From assembly GCA_963281255.1 (NCBI GenBank), contig OY725489.1, positions 4,898,001 through 4,962,000 of the forward strand: a DNA stretch of 64,000 nt, in the 5' to 3' direction. The DNA is from Aphrocallistes beatrix (lineage: Eukaryota > Porifera > Hexactinellida > Sceptrulophora > Aphrocallistidae). A program made the translations under genes and the position numbers. The notes under the pieces are model-generated. The model was not told where the DNA came from. It saw only the letters and a list, made by a program, of their open reading frames with translations, and did not search any database. Positions 3,859 through 59,321 of the stretch are shown here, in pieces. Numbering within the stretch: the first letter of the stretch is position 1; each line of letters begins with the position of its first letter.

Positions 3859-5712
3859 CTATAAACTTTTGAAATGTCCTTCAAGAAATACTAAAGAATC
3901 TAAGGATGAGTCACTCAAACTTGACCTTAATTTAGTAATGAAAAGCACAGCCGAAGAAAATGCTCTTTCAGCTTCTACACTGGTACAGGGCATACTATAC
4001 AGGGCTTGCTCTAAAAGGAGTATATTCTTTGATTTTGTTCCGGTTAGCTCAAAAAGTTTGAAATCTTTGTTCAGTGTATCGAATTCATTTTCTAAATACT
4101 TCCTGGATGCCGTCGTTTTTCGAATACATTCCTTTAGTTCATCAATCATTGGATTTTCCGCAATAATAATATTCACATTCGCTGGTTCAACAAAGCCATT
4201 TATTTCGGATGAGTTCTCAATCTCAGCTTCTGTCACCGGATATAATCTTTTAAGAAGACATTTAGCATTCTTTTGAATCTCCGATCTTTTTGTTGATTTA
4301 TCAACATATGCAGGATCAAGGAGATATTTCTTTAGGTTAATAACTTCACTTAGTCTTCTACGTTCTATCCGCGTATTTAGTGTTTGAAGTAGATCAAGTG
4401 CTAGTTGTGACCCATGTTTTTCAAGTTGAGAAAACATGAAATTACAAATTTCTTCTGCAGTAAGAAGATTAGAATCTTATCCGCATAATGAAGACACTGC
4501 AATTTCTATCGGCATTAGACATTTTTCATATCCTCAAGCATTTCCCATTCATAATCATGTATATTGATGCTGCATGAAACATCTATCAACGCTTTGCTTA
4601 GCGGATTTTTGAGAACAACAAAGCGCTCAATCATTGTGAATAAACTGTTCCATCTTGTTTTACAATCGAGGATTAGTTTCATTTCCTTCCCATTATGGAT
4701 TTCTCTAACATAGGTTTGAAGTGTATCGTTTTTGGTTGAAGATTTTCTGAACAGTTTCACAATTCTTCTAACTTTGATTATAACGAGGTTGATGTGATTT
4801 TTCAAAATAGGTATTACCATATCTGTATCATACGGGTCACAGATTTCATTATCATCTAGTAGTATATTATCGTAAACTTCATTTAATTCAAAATTATCCG
4901 AGAGATTCAACAGCACTTCCGATGAATTTCTGTCTAATTCAGGATTATAAACAACATCACAAACAGCAAGATGGATAGCATGGGCAAAGCATAGTTGGTG
5001 AATCGGTTTAAACAAAGTTCCCATTTTTGTCATTACTGATGCACCATCAGTTATCACAGCTACAACGTCATCATTTAGATGAATACCAAATTCTTTAAGT
5101 TTTTCTACGAGTATATCTTTTGCTCGTTCAGCTGGCATAAGTACTGTAGAATATTCTAGTCAGACCTAGGATCCAAACTTTAGATTTGTGGTGAAGATTG
5201 ACATTCATATACCTTCTGTTTGAATTTGATGTATATTCATCTAGTGTTACACTAAATCAAGCATTTGACTTGAGTAATTCAGTTAATTCTTCTTTAACAC
5301 GATTTTTCATTTGTATACTATATTCTCTGACTTTTACAGATACTGTAGAATGACTGGTTGGAGGAATAAAGCCTTTTGCTGATAGAGATGATCTTATAAA
5401 CTTACTTTTTGCAATTCTCGAGTAGCTAAACCCATCTTCTGCAGCTAATCGGGCGAGTATTTCATTTATAGATTCCTGATTTGTGTAATCTAGCAGAGAA
5501 GATTGGTTATTGTTTACCTTAATCCTCTTTGACAAAAAAGTCTCTTGGTCTTCACTTCCATCTTCTTTTCCTCCTTCAAGATTCATATCATGTACTAAGA
5601 CTAGATGTTTTCTTAAGCTACTTGTACTTCCATCGCTACAACTCAGAATCTTTGAAGGGCATTGTAAACATTTTGCCCTTTGGCCCATTTTCTCAAAATG
5701 TTTCCTAACCAA
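3859..5712 (-). pseudogene. hAT transposase with BED zinc finger, broken
   Basis: Three minus-strand pieces. 5712-5257 has an N-terminal BED-type finger (CLQCPSKI, then HLVLVHD) that binds transposon ends. 5138-4515 has the RNase-H-like region with the hAT block VITDGASVMTKMG and the Cys/His stretch LCFAHAIHLAVCD. 4437-3859 has the C-terminal dimerisation block SVEAERAFSSAVLFITKLRS. The pieces lie in different frames with gaps of about 80-120 bases that show no splice signals, so this is a dead copy. No TIRs or 8-bp target duplication could be recognised. Confidence 0.85.
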
Positions 5713-6248: not shown

Positions 6249-7139
6249 TTGATCACAGAGATCATATTTGAACATCTTAACACAACTGATAGATCTCATG
6301 CTGCACATCCACATGTACAAGTTTGTGTTGCTCTACAATTTTTTGCATCTGGTACTTTTCAGATTATTTGTGGTGATGGAGTTCACGTGAGCCAGCCCTC
6401 AGCTTGCAGGTACATTAGAGCCGTTACACTTGGACTGCAATCGGTATATTCTAAGTATATTAGCATGTCCGGTTCTGCTGACAAGGCTATGATTAAGTCA
6501 CAGTTTTATGAGCTCGCGAACCTTCCCGGCGTTATTGGACTTGTAGATGGAACACATATTCGTATTCAAAAGCCTTCTGAGAATGAGGCGGATTATGTAA
6601 ACCGACATTTCTATCACTCCATAAATGTTCAAGCAATCTGTCTACCTGATGGTAGATTTTCCGATGTATTGGCAAGATTCCCCGGTTCAGTTCATGACTC
6701 ACGTATTTGGAAGCTCTCTCAGGTTGGAACATATGTGGAGAATAACTTCTTGGCTGGTGAGCATATATTAGGTGATAGTGGGTGTATGCTGAAATCCTAT
6801 TTATTTACTCCATACCGACAAACTGCTTCAAATGCCCAAGAGAATTATAATTACTCCCACAAAAAGACGCGTGTATTAATCGAGCAAACCTTTGGGAGAT
6901 GGAAGAGAAGATTCCATTGCCTTCACGGCGAGATCCGGATGGCTCCAGATAAAGTCTGCACTATTATTCTTGCATGTGCTGTTCTTCATAATATGGCTAT
7001 TGTTTGGAAGCAGCCCATGTTGGAAGATTCCACTATTGACGATACAAGTATTATGGATGAACCGTTTGCATTTGAGGAAACGGGATATATTGCTACTAAA
7101 CACTACAGGGATCAGTTTGCTATTCATAACTTTAGTTGA
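6249..7139 (+). pseudogene. PIF/Harbinger DDE transposase (HARBI1-like), N-terminus lost
   Basis: A DDE_Tnp_4-type nuclease that acts with a Myb-like partner on TWA-type targets. The open frame of about 296 codons has an N-terminal helical part (VSQPSACRYIRAV near 47-59) and the triad in family context: Asp in GLVDGTHI (residue 100), Asp in SVHDSRIW (150) and Glu in RVLIEQTFGRWKRRF (212). The catalytic core is uninterrupted. The frame has no ATG at its start and family members are usually 50-80 residues longer, so the first part is missing. A Myb-like ORF follows 270 bases downstream on the same strand, as usual for this superfamily. Confidence 0.85.
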
Positions 7140-12758: not shown

Positions 12759-14267
12759 CTAGATAATGGACCCTTCCCCCGATTGAAGATTCTCTTGAAA
12801 AAAATTGGTCATCTTGCTTTGTTGTTGGGGAACGGACAAGAGTGCCTGCTCCACTTCAGTTACGGCATTGGGCACTTCTCCAGTACTAAAAATAAAGCAT
12901 CTGGTAATATTCCTCATGGCTTGCAGACATTCGCTTATTGTAGGAGGAGACTCGTCATTAACAGGGTATTGCTCATCTATATCTTCGTCGCTGTCTTCTG
13001 ACCTCGCTTCCTCCACCATGTTATCAATGATCATATCAATATCTACTGTAGGCTCCTCACTGGTTGTCTCAAAATCCTCTAAATCAGCAACATCAGAGAA
13101 TTCATCGGAATAGTCTTGCACCTGGTTCACTGCCTCATTTTGTTCAGCCACACGACTTAGAAGACCTGACTTTCTCCATGCATTCTTTATAACCTCACTC
13201 GACACATTAAGTTCCCAAGCAGATCTTACCATCATAAGACCTTCATAGAGGGAAACATCCTTTGCTTCCTTGGTTAGCAACAGGTGAGTCAACTTTACCC
13301 GATAATTAGCCTTCAAGGAGCGTATGACCCCTTGGTCGCAAGGTTGCAACATGGAAGTCGTTCGTTTCGGCAGCATCCTGATCTCAATACATGACTTAAT
13401 GCAGTCATAGATATCCAAAAACCGTTGTGAGAAGGACAGTTGTTAATGAACAGTAACACCTTTCGTGTTTTCAGTTTGCTATTGAACTTCTTTAAGCAGT
13501 TGAAAATAGTTTTGTGGTCATCCAACCCTTCTTGGAAGAAGCATAGTCCAGAGGAGCTTCTGCTCTCTTCCCTTGAACTATGGGCAATCTTGGTTTGGCA
13601 GCAGTGCCAATACAGAGGAGTGGCATCTTTTCACCATCTATCAAACACCCAACAAGGAGTGTGACTCGAGATTTGATAGATTTACGCCCACATATTTTCT
13701 CCTCCTGGGGCCCGACAAATGTTTACCACTGGACATTCTCCAAAAAAGAGCAGTCTCGTCCATGTTGTATATATCACGAGGATGATGCTTAGCTAGAATC
13801 GGCTGAATGGCCACCAACCATTCGTTGAAATCAGGGCAGTCAGCGGATTCTCCATGGGACCTCACATACTTGATTCCATGGCGTTCCCTCCATCTTTGAA
13901 CCTACGACTCATTCAAAGCTCCTTCAATTCCTAGTCTCAAGGCGATTCTTTCAGCAGCTTGAAGAAGTATCGAATTATTCAAATCTTTATTTATGGCACG
14001 CATGTTGGTGAACCATGTTAGAAGTGGTTCATCAGCCTCCCTGTGCTTCTCGGGGCCTTTTAATGATTTTCTTCTGGTGTCAGGTTCAGCAAGATACGTA
14101 GCAATGATTTTGTCCTTCTGTTGGAGAATATAAATAACAGAGGGTTTTATGATTCCAAACATTTTCGCAAGTTCCGCTTTCGTGCTACGTTGATGGAGAG
14201 GAGCATCGAAGAGCATCACTAGCCGATGTTTCTCTTTAAGTGTCAGCCGCACTTTTTTCTGAGCCAT
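12759..14267 (-). pseudogene. Tigger/Jerky-like transposase (CENP-B type head, DDE_1), broken
   Basis: Begins MAQKKVRLTLKEKHRLVMLF with a CENP-B/pogo helix-turn-helix (AELAKMFGIIKPSVIYILQQ). A second DNA-binding part contains an in-frame TAG just before VQRWRERHGIKYVRSHG. Then IYNMDETALFWRM has the first Asp, and after frame changes VLLFINNCPSHNG has Asn where the second Asp is normally found (DNCPSH). TSMLQPCDQGVIR has the third acidic residue. An acidic C-terminus follows to 12759. TAG, at least two frame changes and the Asp-to-Asn change all argue that it is dead. Confidence 0.85.
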
Positions 14268-34067: not shown

Positions 34068-35584
34068 GTAGACTCCAGAGAGTTGGGACGTAAGATAGTG
34101 CTTCCCTCCTCCTATACTGGCTCTCCTCGGCAGATGTTCGAGCTGTACCAGGATGCAATGAGTATAGTCCGGAAATATGGTAAGCCAGACTATTTCATTA
34201 CATTTACATGTAATCCGCAATGGGAGGATATTACGTCCGCTCTCATATTAGATCAGAAAGCGTCTGAACGCCCTGATTTAGTGGTTAGAGTCTTTAGATT
34301 GAAGTTGAGAGAATTGATTTCGGATCTTATGAATAAACACATACTGGGCAAACCTCTTGCTCATGTTTATACTATTGAATTCTTCCTCACGCGCACATTC
34401 TGATTATTCTATCGGATCATGATAAGCCCAGGGAACCGTGTGAGTATGATAGAATTGTGTGTGCTGAGCTCCCTGACCCGATTCTCCAACCTCGACTGCA
34501 CGCTATCGTTAAACGCTGTATGATGTACGGTGCATGTGGTGTAGCCAATAAGAGCGCTCCCTGTTTAAAAGACGGGAAATGCTCTAAGAGATTCCCAAAG
34601 GCATTTTCAGCAGCTACTACAACGTCTGAAGATGGCTACCCATTGTATCGTCGTAGAAACGACGACCGTGTTGTTAATGTGGGTGGGGCACGCTTGGATA
34701 ATAGATGGGTAGTACCCTACAATCCATTTTCATTGTTGAAGTTTAATGCTCATATTAACGTAGAAATCTGTAGTACAGTGAGTGCAGTTAAAACAAAGGA
34801 CACTACCGAGCTATTGTAGAATTTAAGTCAGGTGGTGAGGAGGCAGAGGCTGCCGGAAAGAAAAAGTGCGTCGATGAAATATCGACTTACTTAGATGCCC
34901 GGTATGTGTCTGCCACTGAAGCGTGTTATCGTATATTTGCGTATGAGCTCCACGCGAATCTGCCACATGTGTTGAGATTAGCTCTGCATCTTGAGAATCA
35001 GCAGCCAGTTTATTTCCCAGAGCAAGCTGAGCTTGATGATGTGTTGAGCCGACAAAGGCACACCACTTTGACTGGATGGTTTATTGCAAACCAGGAATTC
35101 CATTGCGCTAGGGAGATTACATATACTAATTTCCCCGATGAGTTTGTATGAGATAAATCGAAGCGCGAATGGAAGTTGAGAGTGAAGGGGCATGGCATCA
35201 TGATAGGTCGCATGCATGTATGCAGCTCATCCCGGTGAAGGGGAGCGTTTTTATCTAAGAATGCTCCTCAACCATGTCACAGGATGTACGAGTTTTAAGG
35301 ACATCCGTACTCTCGCTGATGGTACTGTCTGTGAAAGCTTTAAGGAGGCCGCGCGCAGACTTGGATTGTTGGAAGATGACACGGAGTTAGATCAGTTTTT
35401 GGCAGAAGCGGGTGTTTGTGTGATGCCCCCACAGATGCGCCAGCTCTTTGTCACAATCCTCCTATTTAGTGTCCCAACTGATCCCTTGGCTCTTTGGGAA
35501 CACCATCAGGCCTCTTTATCTGAGGACTTTCTGTGTCGTGCTAAGCGAGTAGTTCTTGACGTCCAATTGGATGAGCACATTTAA
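34068..35584 (+). pseudogene. Helitron RepHel protein, Rep (HUH) nuclease part, broken
   Basis: Rolling-circle initiator half of a Helitron protein. Reads VLPSSYTGSPRQMFELYQDA, YGKPDYFITFTCNPQWEDI and KPLAHVYTIEF. A frame change with a small deletion follows, then the HUH motif LPHAHILIILSDHDKPRE at 34383-34430. Then MMYGACGVANKSAPCLKDGK and RWVVPYNPFSLLKFNAHINV. Another change leads to VDEISTYLDARYVSATEACY, where the catalytic tyrosines are expected. RFYLRMLLNHVTGCTSFKDI is the conserved link to the helicase. At least four breaks show it is dead. The 5' third is lost in the gap. Confidence 0.85.
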
Positions 35585-35587
35585 ACA

Positions 35588-37163
35588 TTGTTGGATATTG
35601 AGAATCGCTTACAGAGACATGTAAAGTCTTTAGAGGATTACCCAGGTATGCCTGTCCCTAAGCATATGCGTAATCCGTACGAAGAACCCAGAATCATACA
35701 GAATGAACTTGATTATTGTGTTAGTGATCAGTTGGAAATGGTGCGTGTGAATGTGCCAATGCTCAATACAGACCAACTGATTGTCTTCAACACTGTGATG
35801 AAGGCCATTGATGATACCGCGGTCTATCCTAAGTTGTTCTTCGTGGACGGACCTGGCGGTACAGGTAAAACTTTCGTTTACAATACACTGTTAGCCAAGG
35901 TCCGTTCAAGGAGAGAGATTGCCCTCGCGATGGCTTCTTCGGGGATTGCGGCACTCCTCCTAAATGGTGGCAGGACTGTACATTCGAGAATGAAAGTTCC
36001 TCTCTCGACCAATGCACATTCTGCGTGTAGCATTACTAAGCAGAGTGTGCTTGCCCGTCTCATCCAGCGTGCAAGTTTATTGGTCTGGGATGAGGCTCCG
36101 ATGTCTCATAAGCATGTTGCTGAATGCATGGATCGAACTCTGAGAGACCTGTGCTCTTGCGATCTACCATTTGGCGGCAAGGTTATGGTATTTGGAGGTG
36201 ATTTCCGTCAGATTCTGCCTGTAATTAGACGAGGAACCAGAGGTGATGTTGCTTCTGCATGTCTCAACAGATCATCTCTCTGGCGCTATGTTAAGATTTT
36301 AAATTTGACTATTAATATGCGCCTACGGAAATTATCTTCTCAGGACTCACTTGAAGTGAGTTCTCCAACTTCTTATTGAGGGTTGGAGAGGGCACTGAAC
36401 TCGAAGATGAGGTTCACATGATTCACATCGACGACAAGTTTGTTGTCCCGGGAAATGATATTTCTGATTTGGTTTATTCTGTCTATGGTGACATTGTGAA
36501 TAATTACCTTGATCAGGATTTCATGAGTCAACGCATCTTAATGTCTCCAAAGAATGAGACAGTAGATGCCATAAACGATTACGTAATGCGACAGATACCT
36601 GGAGATGATCAAACATTTTTAAGTGCAGATTCAGTTGATGATACGCAGGCTGCCATATACCCCACGGAGTTCTTGAACTCTCTAAATCCTAATGGTATGC
36701 CCCCTCATCGTCTGAAGCTTAAAGAGTTTGCATCTATCATCTGCGGAATCTTGATTCTGCTCAGGGTTTGTGTAATGGCACTCGCTTGACTGTAAGATCG
36801 TTTACTAAACGTCTTATAGACGCAGAGATTGCCACAGGTATCCATGCGGGGACTCGAGTATTCATTCCTCGCATTCCATTACTTACTCCCTCAGATTCTG
36901 GCCTTCCCTTTATCTTAAAGCGAAGACAGTTCCCAGTTCGGCATGCTTTCTGTATCACAATAAATAAGGGTCAAGGTCAGAGTTTAGAGACTGTTGGTAT
37001 TTTCCTCCCTTCCCCTGAAGCCATATTCAGCCATGGTCAACTCTATGTGGCTCTTAGTCACGTTCAGAATCCTAGCGGTTTGAAGATCATGGTTTGTGGA
37101 GGACAACAGTCTACTGGAGGAGGAGTATTGGTGAAGAATGTCGTAATCGGGAGGTTTTTCTAA
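35588..37163 (+). pseudogene. Helitron RepHel protein, PIF1-type helicase part, broken
   Basis: SF1 helicase domain of the same protein. The first 263-codon piece has Walker A GPGGTGKT (residues 88-95), motif II in LLVWDEAPMSHKH (DEAP 168-171) and GGDFRQILPV (203-212). A frame change at about 36375 opens the piece with MSQRILMSPKNETVDAINDY. A last piece from 36768 has [32 protein letters not shown] and [11 protein letters not shown], the C-terminal motifs V and VI. The ATPase residues themselves are intact, but three frames are needed to read it. Confidence 0.88.
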
Positions 37164-43515: not shown

Positions 43516-43627
43516 TGTACACTTCTGTAACGTATTGATTGAAAAAATGCACTGCACAAAAGGCTGATTTTTGGCATGTGGGAGTCTTTTGGCTATGACT
43601 CCAGGAAGTTCTGAGCTCAGCAAAATG
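43516..43627 (-). repeat. Repeat family B, part 1 (interrupted copy)
   Basis: GTATTGATTGAAAAAATGCA through GTTCTGAGCTCAGCAAAATG is the end of a family B copy. It stops exactly where the RAG1-like element begins and resumes at 46604. Confidence 0.9.
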
Positions 43628-46603
43628 CACAGTGGCACTTGGCTATTTTTTCGAACGATAGACTAGTAAAAAGTGTTATTAGCCTATAGGTTATCATACC
43701 AAAAGAATCGAATGGAATCAATGAAACTTATGTGGGACTTCAGGTTTTCAAGTTATGTGGTTATTGTCATGATGCTACAATTATAAAGAACACTAAATAT
43801 TTCATAAAGTCATTCATAATAAGCTCTAATCATCCTCTTGTAAAAAAGTCTGTTTACAAGTATTTCTTGTTCGCCCACACCCTCAACCATCGTGTTTTTC
43901 TTTTGAATTGATTTCTTTATTCTTCTATTCAGTAATATCACTGGGTCGCTCAGGCATAACATTCGAGTAAAAACGTCCCTTATGTTATCTTCAAAACAAA
44001 ACTTACGGGATAACCGTTCTCTGTACCTGCGGATCAGCTTATTACTCGCCTCAAGCCCTTCTTCAGACAGTTGCTCTAACCCTTTGCCATTGTTGAATGT
44101 TATTATGATCTCTGGTGCGTGAGCTAACACCTTGTGCAACGTCGGAGTAATATTTGCCCAAGGAAATGTATTTAGGATAAATAAGTAGCGTTTTCGACAT
44201 ACCACTATTAATTCTTCTGTATCGATTTGTCTTCCACAGTTATACAGTCTTAAGACAGCTCCGAGGTATGTATGAATTAAAAATATAGCGTCTTTGTGCT
44301 CAGTCGGTAGTGTTGACAGCACCCAATATAGGAAATCCTTCTCGTTATCAGTATTTCGGATTAAGCAGCGCCTGACAACATTCCCTGTAGTGGTAGTCCC
44401 GCCTTGAGAAGAAGCAAAATCAATCAGGATATTTAATTTTTCTTTCACTAATCCGCACACGAAGAACTTTGCACCTTTGACGTTTGCTGAACTTGGTGAC
44501 CATTTGGAAACTCCAGCATTCAGATGTCCAACCAATTGCATCAGTCAACCGAAACACCTGAGATAAGCATGCAATGGTGAACTGGGGACGATATCTATGT
44601 CAGATAATGGGGCATGCGTGAGGTTATACCGCTGATCAATAGATAAAGACAGGAAATGCTCCTCATTGACCTCCTCGAATAGACTTATGGCATCACTAAC
44701 GTATCTATTAATAGGAAAGCCGTCATTTACAATGTCCACGTCATGAATCTGGCCGAATGTAGCAGTACAGAACTGGCAGACTGCACCTCCTGCACCGCTG
44801 AGAATCTGAGCCATTTACCATCTACCTGTGACCGTAAAACCTCTACTGTAGCATGATGACCGTTAATTAAATCTAATCCGTTTGCCACAATTTCACTCGT
44901 TTCTATGTTGATGGGTTTTTTCATAAGAAAACTAATATTTCCTCATTTTCGGGGAGGGCGAGTAAGGTAATTGGTCGAATGGTAAAGGGAGAATTAGGTG
45001 CTATGTTTTTCCAGAGAGTATTATCATGAATGTCTGTAATTGTTAGCAGTTTGAAGCAAAACAAGATAAAATTTTTAGTTGTAATATCCAGATGTGAAGT
45101 AGCTTGCTGATACACGCGATGGGAACCTGATCCATCCAACCCATCAGAAATACGAACTTTGAGTTTTTGTCCACAATCATCGAGAGGAATATTCAATAGA
45201 ACTCTGTTAATTGTATGTGTGAGCAGTTTACTGTATGATATACTGATACCAAACGGATAGTCTCTCTCCACTAACTTAACTTCTTCAGCTAAACTAATCT
45301 GACTTCGATGAAGAGCAACTCGATTATAACCAGGGAGGATGATGGATTCTGTCAATAGTACACGCCTCAGATCAATATATTTCGATTTTCCAATTTCAAG
45401 GTAGTCTAACAAGAAAGCGGATGTATCTAAAGACAGCTTGTTACCGAATTGCCCGAACTTTCCTGTATTGATTATCTGTGTGATAACATTAACTGTACCT
45501 TTATCGTGCTCCTCCAATGAGTATAATTTAACAAGATACATAACTATAGTTTTCGGAGTGCAATCTTCGTGTTGAGCAACTACTTCAACGTGAGATCTAA
45601 GTTTGCTGAGTCGGTTCCGAATTGCCTTATTCTGTAACTGGCTGATGTGTTTTCCACGTATCTGACTGAAATTCTCCTGGATTTCGAAAGTTAGAGTTGG
45701 AAACTGTTCCAAGGGAGAATCTTCATTGGAATATTGAGATAGATCACTGTGCGATGGATCTGAAGATGTGCAAAAGAACAACTGGTTCCAAGTCGGTAAA
45801 TCATCCCTCCTCAGATAAGTCAATCTCTCTTTCTTTATTTCAGAGAATTTCCTTCGCAAATGGTCAACTTGATAATCCTTACAGCCATGTTCCTCAATAA
45901 ACATACGAGAAATATCACTAAAACTTTTATCCGAGTTGGTAAGATAGAAACTATAAGCTTCTTCGTTATTCATGTTCGATAGTTTGTGTCAAATTGCTAA
46001 TCACTCATAAAATAAAAAATGTGTCAATTTTTTGAAAAAATGATGAAATTACAAATCGGTAAATTAGAAAAGTTAATGTAACAAATTTCGGAAAGCTTGG
46101 GAATAGCTATAAATTTTATATTAGATTAAAAATCGAATTTCCTTTATAATATATAAATCTTATAACTCGCAAGCATAGGCAAAATTAGTTCTATCACTTT
46201 AAGCAGCGCGGTTTATTTTTATACGACTTGGAAATCCACTCAGTTTTAAAATTAGAACATCAAATTCCGGATAGTAAATGCAGTAACGAAGTATATCAAT
46301 TATTATTCAGCAGAAAAAGAGCTATTGATTGATATATAATAATCACAACTTAGGATGAGCTGATGAGGGGAGCCTTTATTATTCTGAATTACATCATAGT
46401 CGAAAATCGAAACCTAAATTTATACTTTTGGAATATTGAAGTTGACATGCCTGTGAAGAGTAATATGAGGTTAACGGAAATGGAATTCCAAGAATGAAAT
46501 TTGGTTTCCTAGGTTTACGAGTATGCTGATTTCGAAAATCAACATTAGAAAGAAATTCAATGTTATGAATTTCCATCCAAAAGCCACCTGCCGTGCCGTT
46601 GTG
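43628..46603 (-). mobile_element. Transib/RAG1-like transposon, 2976 bp, exactly bounded
   Basis: Ends are CACAGTGGCACTTGGC at the left and complement of CACAACGGCACGGCAGGTGG at the right (9 of the first 11 positions match). Flanking AATG at 43624-43627 and 46604-46607 is a 4-bp target duplication (5 bp with one mismatch is the alternative). The host is a family B repeat whose uninterrupted copies at 54020-54035 and 20955-20975 (complement) show the empty site AAAATGTCGAC. The only gene is a RAG1-related transposase on the minus strand; no RAG2-like kelch gene is present. The first 630 bases and last 180 bases are non-coding. Confidence 0.88.
43810..45973 (-). pseudogene. Transib/RAG1-like transposase, copy 2
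   Basis: DDE recombinase of the Transib/RAG1 family. Start M at 45973. The N-terminal 270 residues include a basic helical part (QLQNKAIRNRLSKLRSHVEV) and YIDLRRVLL, as in Transib. Core: VRISDGLDGSGSHRVYQQ (residues 274-290, first acidic residue), DNTLW, PNSPFTIRPITLL. A one-base loss at 44922 shifts to MKKPINIETSEIV; a further -1 step at 44814 opens MAQILSGAGGAVCQFCTAT with the CxxC pair. Then APLSDIDIVP, SPLHAYLRCFG, an in-frame TGA at 44542, and GGTTTTGNVVRR, LHKVLAHAPEIIITF, LSEEGLEASNKLIRRYRERL (Glu164 of this piece matches RAG1 Glu962). It ends at 43810. RAG1 has HKTLAHVPEII and SEGNESGNKLFRRFRK at the same places. The second catalytic residue could not be assigned. Confidence 0.85.
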
Positions 46604-46971
46604 AATGTCGACTCATCATGGAATTATGGCGTCATTATCACATTTTTTAAAGTTTAGCAATACAGTTATTCGAGGATAACTCAGCCATTATAGGAGATAG
46701 AAAACTGAGATTTCAATAGAATCTGTATACTAATATACCTCACATAAGATGCGACTATCATTAAAAAAAGATGACTCATCACTTTGTTATGACGTCATCA
46801 TTACTCACCAAAATTTTAAAAATTGATAATTTTGGTGATTTTTCGTGCGATATCGATAATAACAGTAGGGCAGAAGTATTTAGAGATGCTATCTCCCATA
46901 TAATTAAACAATGATGATCACAGGTGCCTCTGGCGGACACAAAGTGTCCGCCAGCCGCGCGGCGCAAATGT
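46604..46971 (-). repeat. Repeat family B, part 2 (interrupted copy)
   Basis: Continues from 43627: TCGACTCATCATGGAATTAT, TGACTCA at 46772-46778, TGACGTCA at 46790-46797, then the terminal module GCGGACACAAAGTGTCCGC truncated at GCGCAAATG. It abuts a family A 3' part. Confidence 0.9.
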
Positions 46972-53934: not shown

Positions 53935-54412
53935 AAGAAACTGCCGGGTACAGAAAGCTGATTTTTGACATGTGGGGGTATTTTGGCTATGGCTCCAGTA
54001 AGTTCTGAGTTCAAACTAAAATGTCGACTCATCATAGAATTATGACGTCATTGTCACCTTTTTTATAATTAGAAATTTCAGTTTTTCGACTATAACTCAA
54101 CCATTTTAGGTGCTAGAAGGCTGAAATTTTTATAGAGTATGTATATTAATATACCTCACATATGATAGAAACTATTATCAAAAAATGATGACTCATCACT
54201 CTGTTATGACGTCATCATTACGCATCAAAATTTTAAAAATTGACAAATTTAGTAACTTTTCGTGCGATATCGATTATAGCAGGACTGAGGTATTTAGGGA
54301 TGATATTTCCGTTATAATTAATCAATGTGAACCTAGGCGACCAAAGGGAGCCGCCAGCGGACACAAAGTGTCCGCCAGCCGCGCAGCGCAAGCAAATGAA
54401 GCGCGCTTGTAT
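53935..54412 (-). repeat. Repeat family B copy, uninterrupted
   Basis: TTGATTGAAGAAACTGCCGG, GTTCTGAGTTCAAACTAAAA, TGACGTCA 54043-54050, TGACTCA 54190-54196, TGACGTCA 54208-54215 and the terminal module with GCGGACACAAAGTGTCCGC and GAAGCGCGCTTG. It preserves the empty site for the RAG1-like insertion. Confidence 0.88.
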
Positions 54413-56808: not shown

Positions 56809-59321
56809 GATAATAATCATAATAATATACATTTATATAGCGCAGATTCCATATTAATAAGTTCAAGTGCGCTGTACAATTCAATAAAAGTAGGTGTGTG
56901 TTATGCATGTAGGTATGTATGTGTATGTATGCGTATGTATGTATATGTATGCTTGTAAGGTATGTATATGCGTTGAAATTGGTTTAAGTGGATATGTCGT
57001 GCGTGATACGGAAAAGATGAGTTTTCAAGAGTGTTTTGAAGAGAAGAAGTGAGGGGGCATTCCGAATGCTCGGAGGCAGAAGATTCCACTCAACAGGCGC
57101 AGCTAAAGTGAATGCACGATCACCCAGAGTTTTGGAAGATTTTATAGTAGGATGCTCAAGGAGGATGGCGTTGGATGATCGTAGAGTACGATTGGATGAC
57201 TTAACCTGTATGAGCTGGATGATATAGTCCGGAGCAAGAGAATGGATGGCTTTGTAAGTTATGAGGAGGATTTTGAAGAGGATACGATGTTTAACAGGCA
57301 GCCAGTGTAGGTTAATAAGAAGAGGAGATGACGAAAAGGTACGAGAGACATTGTAGATAAGCCTGGATGCACTGTTCTGGACTCGCTGGAGTCGAGCTAA
57401 GAGGGATGAGGGGCAACCATACAAGAGACTGTTACAATAATCAAGACGAGATGTGATAAGAGAATTAACAAGAGTTTCACAGACTTCCCTAGAGAGATAC
57501 TTTCTAATACGCCGGATGTTATAGATGTAATAGAAGCAGGAGGAGGCAACTTTGCTGACTTGAGTAGACATTGAGAGAGTATTGTCGAGCCAGGTTCCAA
57601 GATTCCGTACTTCTTTGGAAGAAGAGATTCTCGACTCACCAACAGAGATGCTATCAGTTTGAACCTTAGATAGTTGTTGACGAGTCCCTATTATAAGGAA
57701 CTGAGTCTTGGTGTCATTGATAAGCAACTTGTTGGTGAGGAGCCAGGAACGGATCGCGGAGATGATTGGATGGCGGAGAAAGCAGATTCTTCAGAAGAGA
57801 TGGAACCGGGTTTAAAAGAAAGATAGACCTGAGTATCGTCGGCATAGCAGTGCATGTCGGGGAGGTGGGACCTAATGAGGTCGAATAGAGGACTAGTATA
57901 GAGGCTAAAGAGAAGCAGACCAAGACAAGAACCCTGAGGAACTCCGTGTTGGACCAGGATATTGGAGGAATTAGAACCCTTAATCGAGACGAATTGAGTC
58001 CTACCAGAGAGGTAAGATTCAAACCAAGACAAAGAAGAGCCGCAAATACCGAAATGAGACTGGAGACGGTTGAGTAAGATGGTATGGTCGACGGTGTCGA
58101 AGGCTGAGCTAAGATCAAGAAGAACCAGAAGGGATACGTGTTGGCGATTCATGCTGAGGAGGATATCGTTTGTGACCTTCAGGAGCGCAGTCTCCGTACT
58201 GTGGTGTTTACGATAGGCAGACTGCGTCCCGAGGAAGAGATGATGTAATGTAAGATGATTCACGACCTGGATGGATGCGGCCCTCTCAGTGATCTTAGAA
58301 ATGAAAGAAAGATTGCTAAGTGGACGATAGTTAGAGAAGATGGGATCAAGATTTGGTCTTTTAAGTTTGGGCAAGATGATGGCGCGCTTCCAGGGAGAAG
58401 GAAAATGACCAGTGGAGAGGGAACCATTTACGATTTTCGTAAGGATGGGTAGAGAGGATTTGACCAAGGATGCTGGGATAGGATCGAGGATGCAAGATTT
58501 ATTAGGAGCAGAGGAAACAAGGGAAACAATTTCTTTCTCAGATAATTCTTTGAATTGGTGGAAAGTATGTTGGAATTCGATGTTTGAATTATCTGAGGGG
58601 GTAACGGAAGACGACGATGTATTTGAATCAATGGTGGAACGGATGTTATCTACCTTAAGAACAAAGAAGTTGGCGAGTTCCTGAGAAAGAGCAGCCTTAT
58701 CAGCATGAGGTGGTAGGACCTGTTGCTGGCGTAAGCCGAGAAGTGTGTTAGCCTTACGGAAGAGTGAGCGCTGGTCATGACAGGACTGACTGATCTAATC
58801 AGAATAGAAACTGCGACGTTCCCTGTTCATCAGGTCAGTCACAAGATTCCTCTGATGCTTGAATTCAGCCAAATGGTTAGAGTCATTAGACTGGCGCCAC
58901 TTCCGTTCAGTTTTCCTTCTCGCCGCTTGGCCTGCTTGATGCTACTGGTGAACCAAGGGACACGGGGACGGGTGACTATGGCTTTGGATCGCGGAGGAGC
59001 ATGCTGATCATAGATAGAGGATAGGATGCTGTTATATGATACAATAAGTTCCTCAAGATGATCAGGTGGGCGAGCACAGAGATCAGAGGAAGCGAGATCA
59101 GCAAGAAAGATTGGGAGGTTGATGGATTTGGAACGAGAGGTAACCTCCTGAGAGGAAAGAGAAGGTTTGGAAAGCGAGAGACTACAAGAGATGGAGAAAA
59201 GGTCAGAGAATATATGAACAGGAGGGGGATCAGAATCATCCTCTCTGATCCCTCTCCTGTTCATCTGTCTGCAGAACGGGATATTATTAGATCGAGAATG
59301 TGACCCTTCTCATGAGTTGGA
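56809..59321 (-). mobile_element. L2/CR1-group LINE, 5'-truncated, about 2.5 kb
   Basis: Minus orientation with 3' tail at 56815-56845 (ATTATT-type repeats beside GCGCTATATAAATG) and CATA microsatellite. It begins inside the endonuclease-RT linker at 59321. Flanked by the 53-bp duplication and inserted in Tc1. The other copy in this window is at 18110-18958. Confidence 0.9.
56984..59264 (-). pseudogene. LINE ORF2 (end of endonuclease, reverse transcriptase, C-terminus)
   Basis: From 59264: YNSILSSIYDQHAPPRSKAI and RPRVPWFTSSIKQAKR (linker after the endonuclease). 58467-57691: FPSPWKRAIILPKLKR, NYRPLSNLSFISKITE, LLVLLDLSSAFDTVDH (first Asp), VLQHGVPQG-like ILVQHGVPQGSCLG and MHCYADDTQVYLSF (YADD). 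57727-56984: NDTKTQFLIIGTRQQL, LGTWLDNTLSMSTQVSKVAS, SRLDYCNSLLYG, LHWLPVKHRILFKILLITYK, GDRAFTLAAPVEWNLLPPS. Catalytic motifs remain, but frame breaks near 58500 and 57700 and the 5' truncation make it non-functional. Confidence 0.88.

Follow-up and report, generated by a model that had tools for sequence, protein, structure and literature searches.

Here, we describe a transposon in a stretch of 64,000 nucleotides from the glass sponge Aphrocallistes beatrix (assembly GCA_963281255.1, contig OY725489.1, positions 4,898,001 to 4,962,000), which we call the window throughout. The element has CAC ends, spans window positions 43628-46603 (2976 bp) and has AATG on either side. It belongs to the Transib superfamily, and it is a dead copy: its reading frame is broken and part of one end has been lost. 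With a probability of roughly 0.9, we read it as the remnant of a Transib-superfamily cut-and-paste transposon with two unequal ends, whose DDE transposase resembles the RAG1 core and includes a nonamer-binding domain (NBD).

A dead copy with exact edges and an empty site

An original prediction, made from the letters of the window, had proposed a single-gene element of the RAG1/Transib family with exact edges. Both predicted ends are present, CACAGTGGCAC at 43628-43638 on the plus strand and CACAACGGCAC at 46593-46603 on the minus strand. The element sits in a dispersed repeat, of which empty copies exist in the same window. Because two uninterrupted copies, near 54030 and 20965, read through the same place as ...AAAATGTCGACTC..., the empty site is directly visible and the edges hold exactly. 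The features are listed below; L046 and L058 are sister copies of the element elsewhere in the genome.

43624..43627, no strand: target-site duplication copy AATG on the downstream side of the gene (empty site in two window repeat copies)
43628..43638, plus strand: CACAGTGGCAC, the outer element of the 3'-type end (sister copies L046 and L058 as reference)
43810..44541, minus strand: C-terminal piece of the transposase, with the ZnH2 histidines (codons 44134-44136 and 44119-44121) and the catalytic E (codon 44050-44052), assigned by alignment-based residue equivalence
44545..44814, minus strand: transposase piece with the ZnC2 cysteines and the region corresponding to RAG1 alpha11-alpha12 (about 44581-44766), from alignments
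44727..44924, minus strand: transposase piece in another frame with the catalytic D2 (VLRSQVDGK; codon 44820-44822), from alignments
44921..45973, minus strand: N-terminal piece of the transposase, with an NBD-like region (about 45494-45658) and the catalytic D1 (DGLDGSGSH; codon 45134-45136)
46578..46588, minus strand: second element of the 5'-type end, GGTGGCTTTTG, which begins 16 bp from the tip
46593..46603, minus strand: outer element of the 5'-type end, CACAACGGCAC
46604..46607, no strand: target-site duplication copy AATG (empty site, as for the other copy)

The single gene lies on the minus strand and is scattered over several frames. Split among these frames, the predicted blocks DGLDGSGSH, DNTLW, SGAGGAVCQFC, LHKVLAHAPEII and EEGLEASNKLIRRYRE follow one another in order, and the catalytic D, D and E can still be read. 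The sister copies are 96.3-97.8% identical to the window copy by blastn, with 39 mismatches over 2917 bp for L058 and 38 over 2392 bp for L046, in addition to small length changes. Both sisters carry 20 bp directly inside the CACAGTGGCAC tip that the window copy lacks, and these 20 bp hold the second motif of the 3'-type end. Since the frame and the second motif of the downstream end are lost, the window copy should make no functional enzyme and should be a poor substrate. The original prediction was thus right at its core, while it had missed the broken frame, the partial loss of one end and the asymmetry of the family ends.

Further transposon debris surrounds the element. A fragment at 2049-2225 is related to Transib transposases (47% to residues 292-350), and Pfam matched 6 of 10 frames at 3862-4437, 6249-7136, 12762-13418, 34068-36376 and 57694-58467, with a hAT dimerisation domain, a DDE_Tnp_4 transposase, a DDE_1 fragment, a Helitron-like domain with a PIF1 helicase, and a reverse transcriptase.

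Relatives, target duplications and unequal ends

Are there better preserved relatives of this dead copy? A single protein query against the sponge's own 100.5-Mb assembly (28 contigs) gave 83 related places at E <= 1e-5. The genome-wide search for the tip pattern CACARYGGCAC that the original prediction had called for gave 90 + 93 occurrences, and the reversed pattern used as a control gave 23 + 26, a surplus of 134 sites. One subfamily comprises six copies (L021-L026) that are 98.8-99.8% alike over 2.7-3.3 kb. A 734-codon frame is open in L021, which also appears below in a longer cut as L054, and in L024 and L025; the other three have frames of 733 codons with one stop, 683 and 529 codons. 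The near-identity of these copies suggests that relatives of the window copy have been active recently. A 3005-bp element, L051, also has an open frame and shares its ends with a family of elements of roughly 1.1 kb, in which the complete gene would not fit; 11 of 48 matches, the query's own place included, covered the whole short element at an identity of at least 93%. One short CACARYGGCAC element (L027 318-1449, C19) is nested within an L054-type Transib copy, one family inside its relative.

Target duplications were counted in 26 copies with both tips placed, using 650 mismatched flank pairings as a control. An exact 5-bp repeat abuts the tips in 12 of the 26 copies compared with 1 of the 650 pairings, and 5 bp is the commonest duplication of the family. 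Two of the exact cases, L051 and L052, are circular because a 5-bp repeat was itself a condition for locating their ends; without them, the count is 10 of 24. Of 11 CACARYGGCAC pairs, L047 and L049 do not enter the count (inner ends that do not resemble the family; two ends of different type), and neither do L023, for which no 3' end was found, and L055.

Past the first 8-12 bp, which both have in common, the ends of an element differ but share a second motif. Its distance from the tip is 9 bp greater downstream of the gene than it is upstream. In L054, AAAGAATAGG begins at position 18 upstream of the gene and at 27 downstream; the common AGGGAGTT of L052 likewise begins at 18 and 27, and GGTGGC in the focal family (L046) at 16 and 25. 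Summed over six families, the best offset was +9 with 46 of 66 letters matching, while the shuffled maximum was 35 and none of 400 shuffles reached the observed score. This final test was maximised over all windows and offsets, the match window of a first test having been chosen after looking. Taken family by family, +9 was best or tied-best in five of the six, which are not six independent cases because the families are related. Among three subsets of three families tried, L051 + L054 + L055 was weaker, with 5 of 400 shuffles reaching its score.

A RAG1-like transposase and its possible origins

To which known proteins is the transposase most closely related? Among chains of the Protein Data Bank (PDB), the C-terminal piece of the window copy matched HzTransib from Helicoverpa zea (6pqn and kin) at 7.7e-13, amphioxus RAG1L at 3e-5 and RAG1 chains at 1e-3 to 7e-3; the N-terminal piece matched HzTransib at 3.5e-4. 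The Pfam RAG1 family matched the C-terminal piece at 2e-5 with 23.4 bits, just below the curated cut-off of 25, and the Pfam scan of two other transposase pieces gave no match. We further built a sponge-type profile of 26 rows (3 own-genome proteins, 5 named Oopsacas proteins and 18 unnamed ones) and scored it in bits on PDB chains. It reached 152 bits (1.4e-43) on HzTransib. Amphioxus RAG1L scored 63.8 and the best RAG1 chain 62.9, the latter match beginning before the RAG1 NBD. In these alignments, D, D and E together with the ZnC2/ZnH2 zinc ligands coincide with those of HzTransib, RAG1L and RAG1. The predicted assignment to a single-gene, Transib-type element of the RAG1/Transib family is upheld.

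The stretch from the ZnC2 cysteines to the LH motif is 62-64 residues long in 25 of the 26 sponge-type proteins and 58 in amphioxus RAG1L, compared with 27 in 21 of 26 insect-type proteins; the other rows lack the pattern. By sequence, in alignment with RAG1L, it contains the counterpart of alpha11-alpha12, through which RAG1 binds RAG2; this region appears to be kept in the sponge-type proteins and absent from insect-type Transibs.

A tree of sponge-type, insect-type and RAG1/RAG1L rows gathers the sponge-type proteins in a single clade (99/98) that is distinct from the two other groups. Since it contains neither an outgroup nor rows from the rest of Subgroup I, and the program flagged the RAG branches as long, this tree does not place the sponge clade further. 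Within it, 13 rows with a CTT-like Cx2Cx3GHx4-6C tail (the L052/L054/L055 lineage), two variant rows (P0176, P0178) and a decayed one (P0179) form a clade of 16 (99/94), and the ten remaining sponge-type rows lack the motif. It is absent from the focal lineage, which includes L009-L012, L051, P0001, P0002, P0004 and P0005. One gain or several losses would both fit this distribution. Wherever tip and zinc knuckle were both seen, the upstream tip reads CACAGTGGTTT in the three knuckle families of the L052/L054/L055 lineage and CACARYGGCAC in L009-L012, L016, L017 and L048, which have no knuckle; exceptions are L032 with another tip and the copy L023 with a GGTTT tip and no knuckle found. Since this association mirrors the tree, we count it as a single event.

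The retained alpha11-alpha12 counterpart and the CTT-like motif of one sponge lineage could also be expected of a RAGL transposon that once had both RAG1L and RAG2L and then lost RAG2L, which a passage of Martin et al. 2020 (PMC7204232) proposes as a possible origin of Transib. This is the alternative that survives best, and we consider it improbable. The profile matches HzTransib far more strongly than RAG1L, and the sponge clade stands apart from RAG1/RAG1L in the unrooted tree. RAG1L has a long N-terminal non-core region (PMC7204232), whereas in four sponge proteins of 700-761 residues Pfam matched neither a RING nor any further N-terminal zinc domain. Inside L051, L052, L054 and L055, frames of at least 150 codons encode the transposase only and no RAG2-like gene. 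The RAG2 family profile likewise matched nothing, but since it matched none of 14 control genomes either, this search does not establish absence.

Still less probable is a reading in which the sponge proteins belong to the ordinary insect-type Transibs (Subgroup II) and resemble RAG1 by chance. An insect-type profile of equal depth (26 rows: 10 named insects and 16 unnamed proteins, picked by us from the listings) does match RAG1 and RAG1L at the C-terminal end, scoring 28.8 bits on amphioxus RAG1L and 20.7 on a RAG1 chain for the C-terminal block, about as well as the sponge-type profile (24.1 on another RAG1 chain). The 'unusually RAG1-like C-terminal blocks' of the original prediction were therefore not borne out. 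Over the whole length, however, the sponge-type profile outscores the insect-type one, which reaches 49.9 bits on amphioxus RAG1L and 47.7 on its best RAG1 chain; on the same chains, the scores are 62.9 vs 34 (9lqo) and 56.7 vs 47.7 (3jbw). Where the sponge family is more RAG1-like than insect-type Transibs is in the N-terminal NBD region and in the 62-64-residue stretch, which does not agree with the description of Subgroup II in Tao et al. 2022 (PMC9435367). With just the sponge N-terminal domain as query, the RAG1 NBD came up first (3gna, E 0.0041), and the best 16 of 21 hits were all RAG1; the solved NBD 3gna was found by the sponge-type profiles and not listed by the insect-type whole-length profile. 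On these profile matches, the sponge-type proteins seem to carry a recognisable RAG1-type NBD. As NBD equivalents have been reported in both subgroups (PMC9435367), the NBD by itself does not separate them.

That the locus is a domesticated RAG1-like host gene, as the name 'V(D)J recombination-activating protein' of several Oopsacas relatives in UniRef might suggest, is highly improbable given the exact transposon ends, the empty site, the target duplications, the many copies and the broken frame, and in our judgement these names look automatic.

The closest named proteins come from Oopsacas minuta, with 55% along the entire length and up to 66% along 60% of it; unnamed proteins of ENA come as close as 88% to L051, again along the entire length, and 99% to L054. 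Searches with sponge queries returned 52 and 107 sponge-like relatives, the named ones all from Oopsacas; among the matches listed in the insect-like search, 120 of 1186, the named ones were insects. In the own genome, the RAG1 family gave 10 matches, three of which are the focal element, L046 and L058 and two L051 and L049. None passed the cut-off (best 23.9 bits), so that no separate strong RAG1 gene was found there.

Bacterial Transibs have been invoked as ancestors of RAG. In our scan of species genomes, the sole bacterial hit was L065 1-96, where the last 96 bases (32 residues, 59%) of a contig of 3.3 kb with the label Candidatus Paceibacter MAG match the sponge transposase; we read it as probable animal contamination and set it aside. 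A scan of viral genomes found no relatives.

Mechanism, classification and meaning

In the mechanism that we propose for this Transib family, the transposase would recognise two unequal ends, each composed of CACARYGG(CAC) and a second motif, whose start is about 16-18 bp away from the tip on the upstream side and 25-27 bp on the downstream side. By homology with HzTransib and RAG, the transposase would bind the tips at CAC, cut next to CAC and insert the element by a staggered cut, usually with a 5-bp duplication. Presumably, the NBD binds the second motif, and the 9-bp difference would enforce the pairing of one end of each kind.

Several observations weigh against this reading of the family. 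In 7 of the 26 copies (L042, L044, L046, L024/L059, L058, L071/L072 and L083/L084), the 5-bp repeat lies 1-3 bases off the tip, one of them (L071/L072) having an exact 6-bp repeat. Displaced repeats exceed chance (7 of 650 mismatched pairings), and imprecise cleavage outside the heptamer is a possible cause. Another 7 of the 26, the window copy included, have neither an exact nor a displaced 5-bp repeat, three of which match at 4 of 5 positions by eye. The duplication of the window copy, AATG, is 4 bp instead of 5 bp long, for which a 4-bp cut and a 5-bp cut followed by the loss of an A are both possible. As to the ends, L055 matches at 4 of 11 letters and does not show the +9 motif, and an offset of -2 scores as well as +9 in L046. 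The homology of the NBD is drawn from sequence profiles with modest E-values.

How does the family compare with known systems? HzTransib has CAC ends and a single gene like the sponge family, with which it shares the DDE core and the zinc ligands; its duplication is 5 bp, the length that is commonest in the sponge family. Its ends are called symmetric in the passages available of PMC8289069, in contrast to the asymmetric sponge ends. The RAGL transposons ProtoRAG (amphioxus) and AanRAGL (Aureococcus) have, like the sponge family, CAC ends that are bipartite and asymmetric, and a duplication of 5 bp, the commonest length in the sponge family; the spacers of AanRAGL are 4/13 bp and thus likewise differ by 9 (PMC9435367), while those of ProtoRAG are given as 27/31 bp in a passage of PMC8289069. 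RAGL transposons carry RAG2L, which we did not see in L051, L052, L054 or L055. Vertebrate RAG1 with its 12/23 signals shares the DDE core, the NBD, the CAC heptamer (the left tip of the focal element is CACAGTG) and the long and short signals, and both vertebrate RAG1 and the focal sponge lineage lack the CTT zinc motif. It differs in having signal spacers that differ by 11 bp, a RAG2 partner and the status of a host gene.

The DDE core with its ZnC2/ZnH2 ligands, the CAC ends and the single transposase gene mark the focal element as a Transib. Asymmetric ends are characteristic of Subgroup I Transibs, Subgroup II having both kinds (PMC9435367). We found asymmetric terminal repeats in five of six families, the window copy having lost its 3' second element, and the sponge family further has the alpha11-alpha12 region and the NBD equivalent in common with Subgroup I (PMC9435367). 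A CTT1-type motif, which in RAG1L reads Cx2Cx3GHx4C (PMC7204232), is present in the L052/L054/L055 lineage with x4-x6 spacing. Because the focal lineage lacks it, we do not file that lineage outright in Subgroup I, which the focal family works like and mostly looks like.

The main text of PMC9435367 names no sponge. By title, none of the papers listed in our literature search, which did not extend to Repbase or supplements, appears to concern a sponge Transib, and a term search of the accessible text of the glass-sponge genome papers PMC10280926 and PMC10282587 showed no such element. The accessible part of the Oopsacas genome paper reports 15.44% DNA transposons and names neither Transib nor RAG; in the passages available of one paper with both 'Transib' and 'sponge', the latter was the transposon name Spongebob.

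In summary, we found a dead Transib copy with an exact empty site and relatives with open genes and unequal ends, which extends RAG1-like Transibs with asymmetric ends to a glass sponge. How RAG1 came to pair unequal signals under the 12/23 rule is debated. We tentatively suggest, as a doubtful possibility, that sponge Transibs obey a long/short end rule of their own (9 bp) that is read by a RAG1-type NBD without RAG2, and that the tail-less focal lineage, like vertebrate RAG1, relies on the NBD and asymmetric ends; one of the earliest animal lineages would then have independently paralleled the step toward the 12/23 rule. A single-gene system with an NBD, open genes, unequal ends, seemingly recent activity and sister lineages with and without a C-terminal zinc tail could make it possible to separate which domain reads which end motif in a setting free of RAG2.

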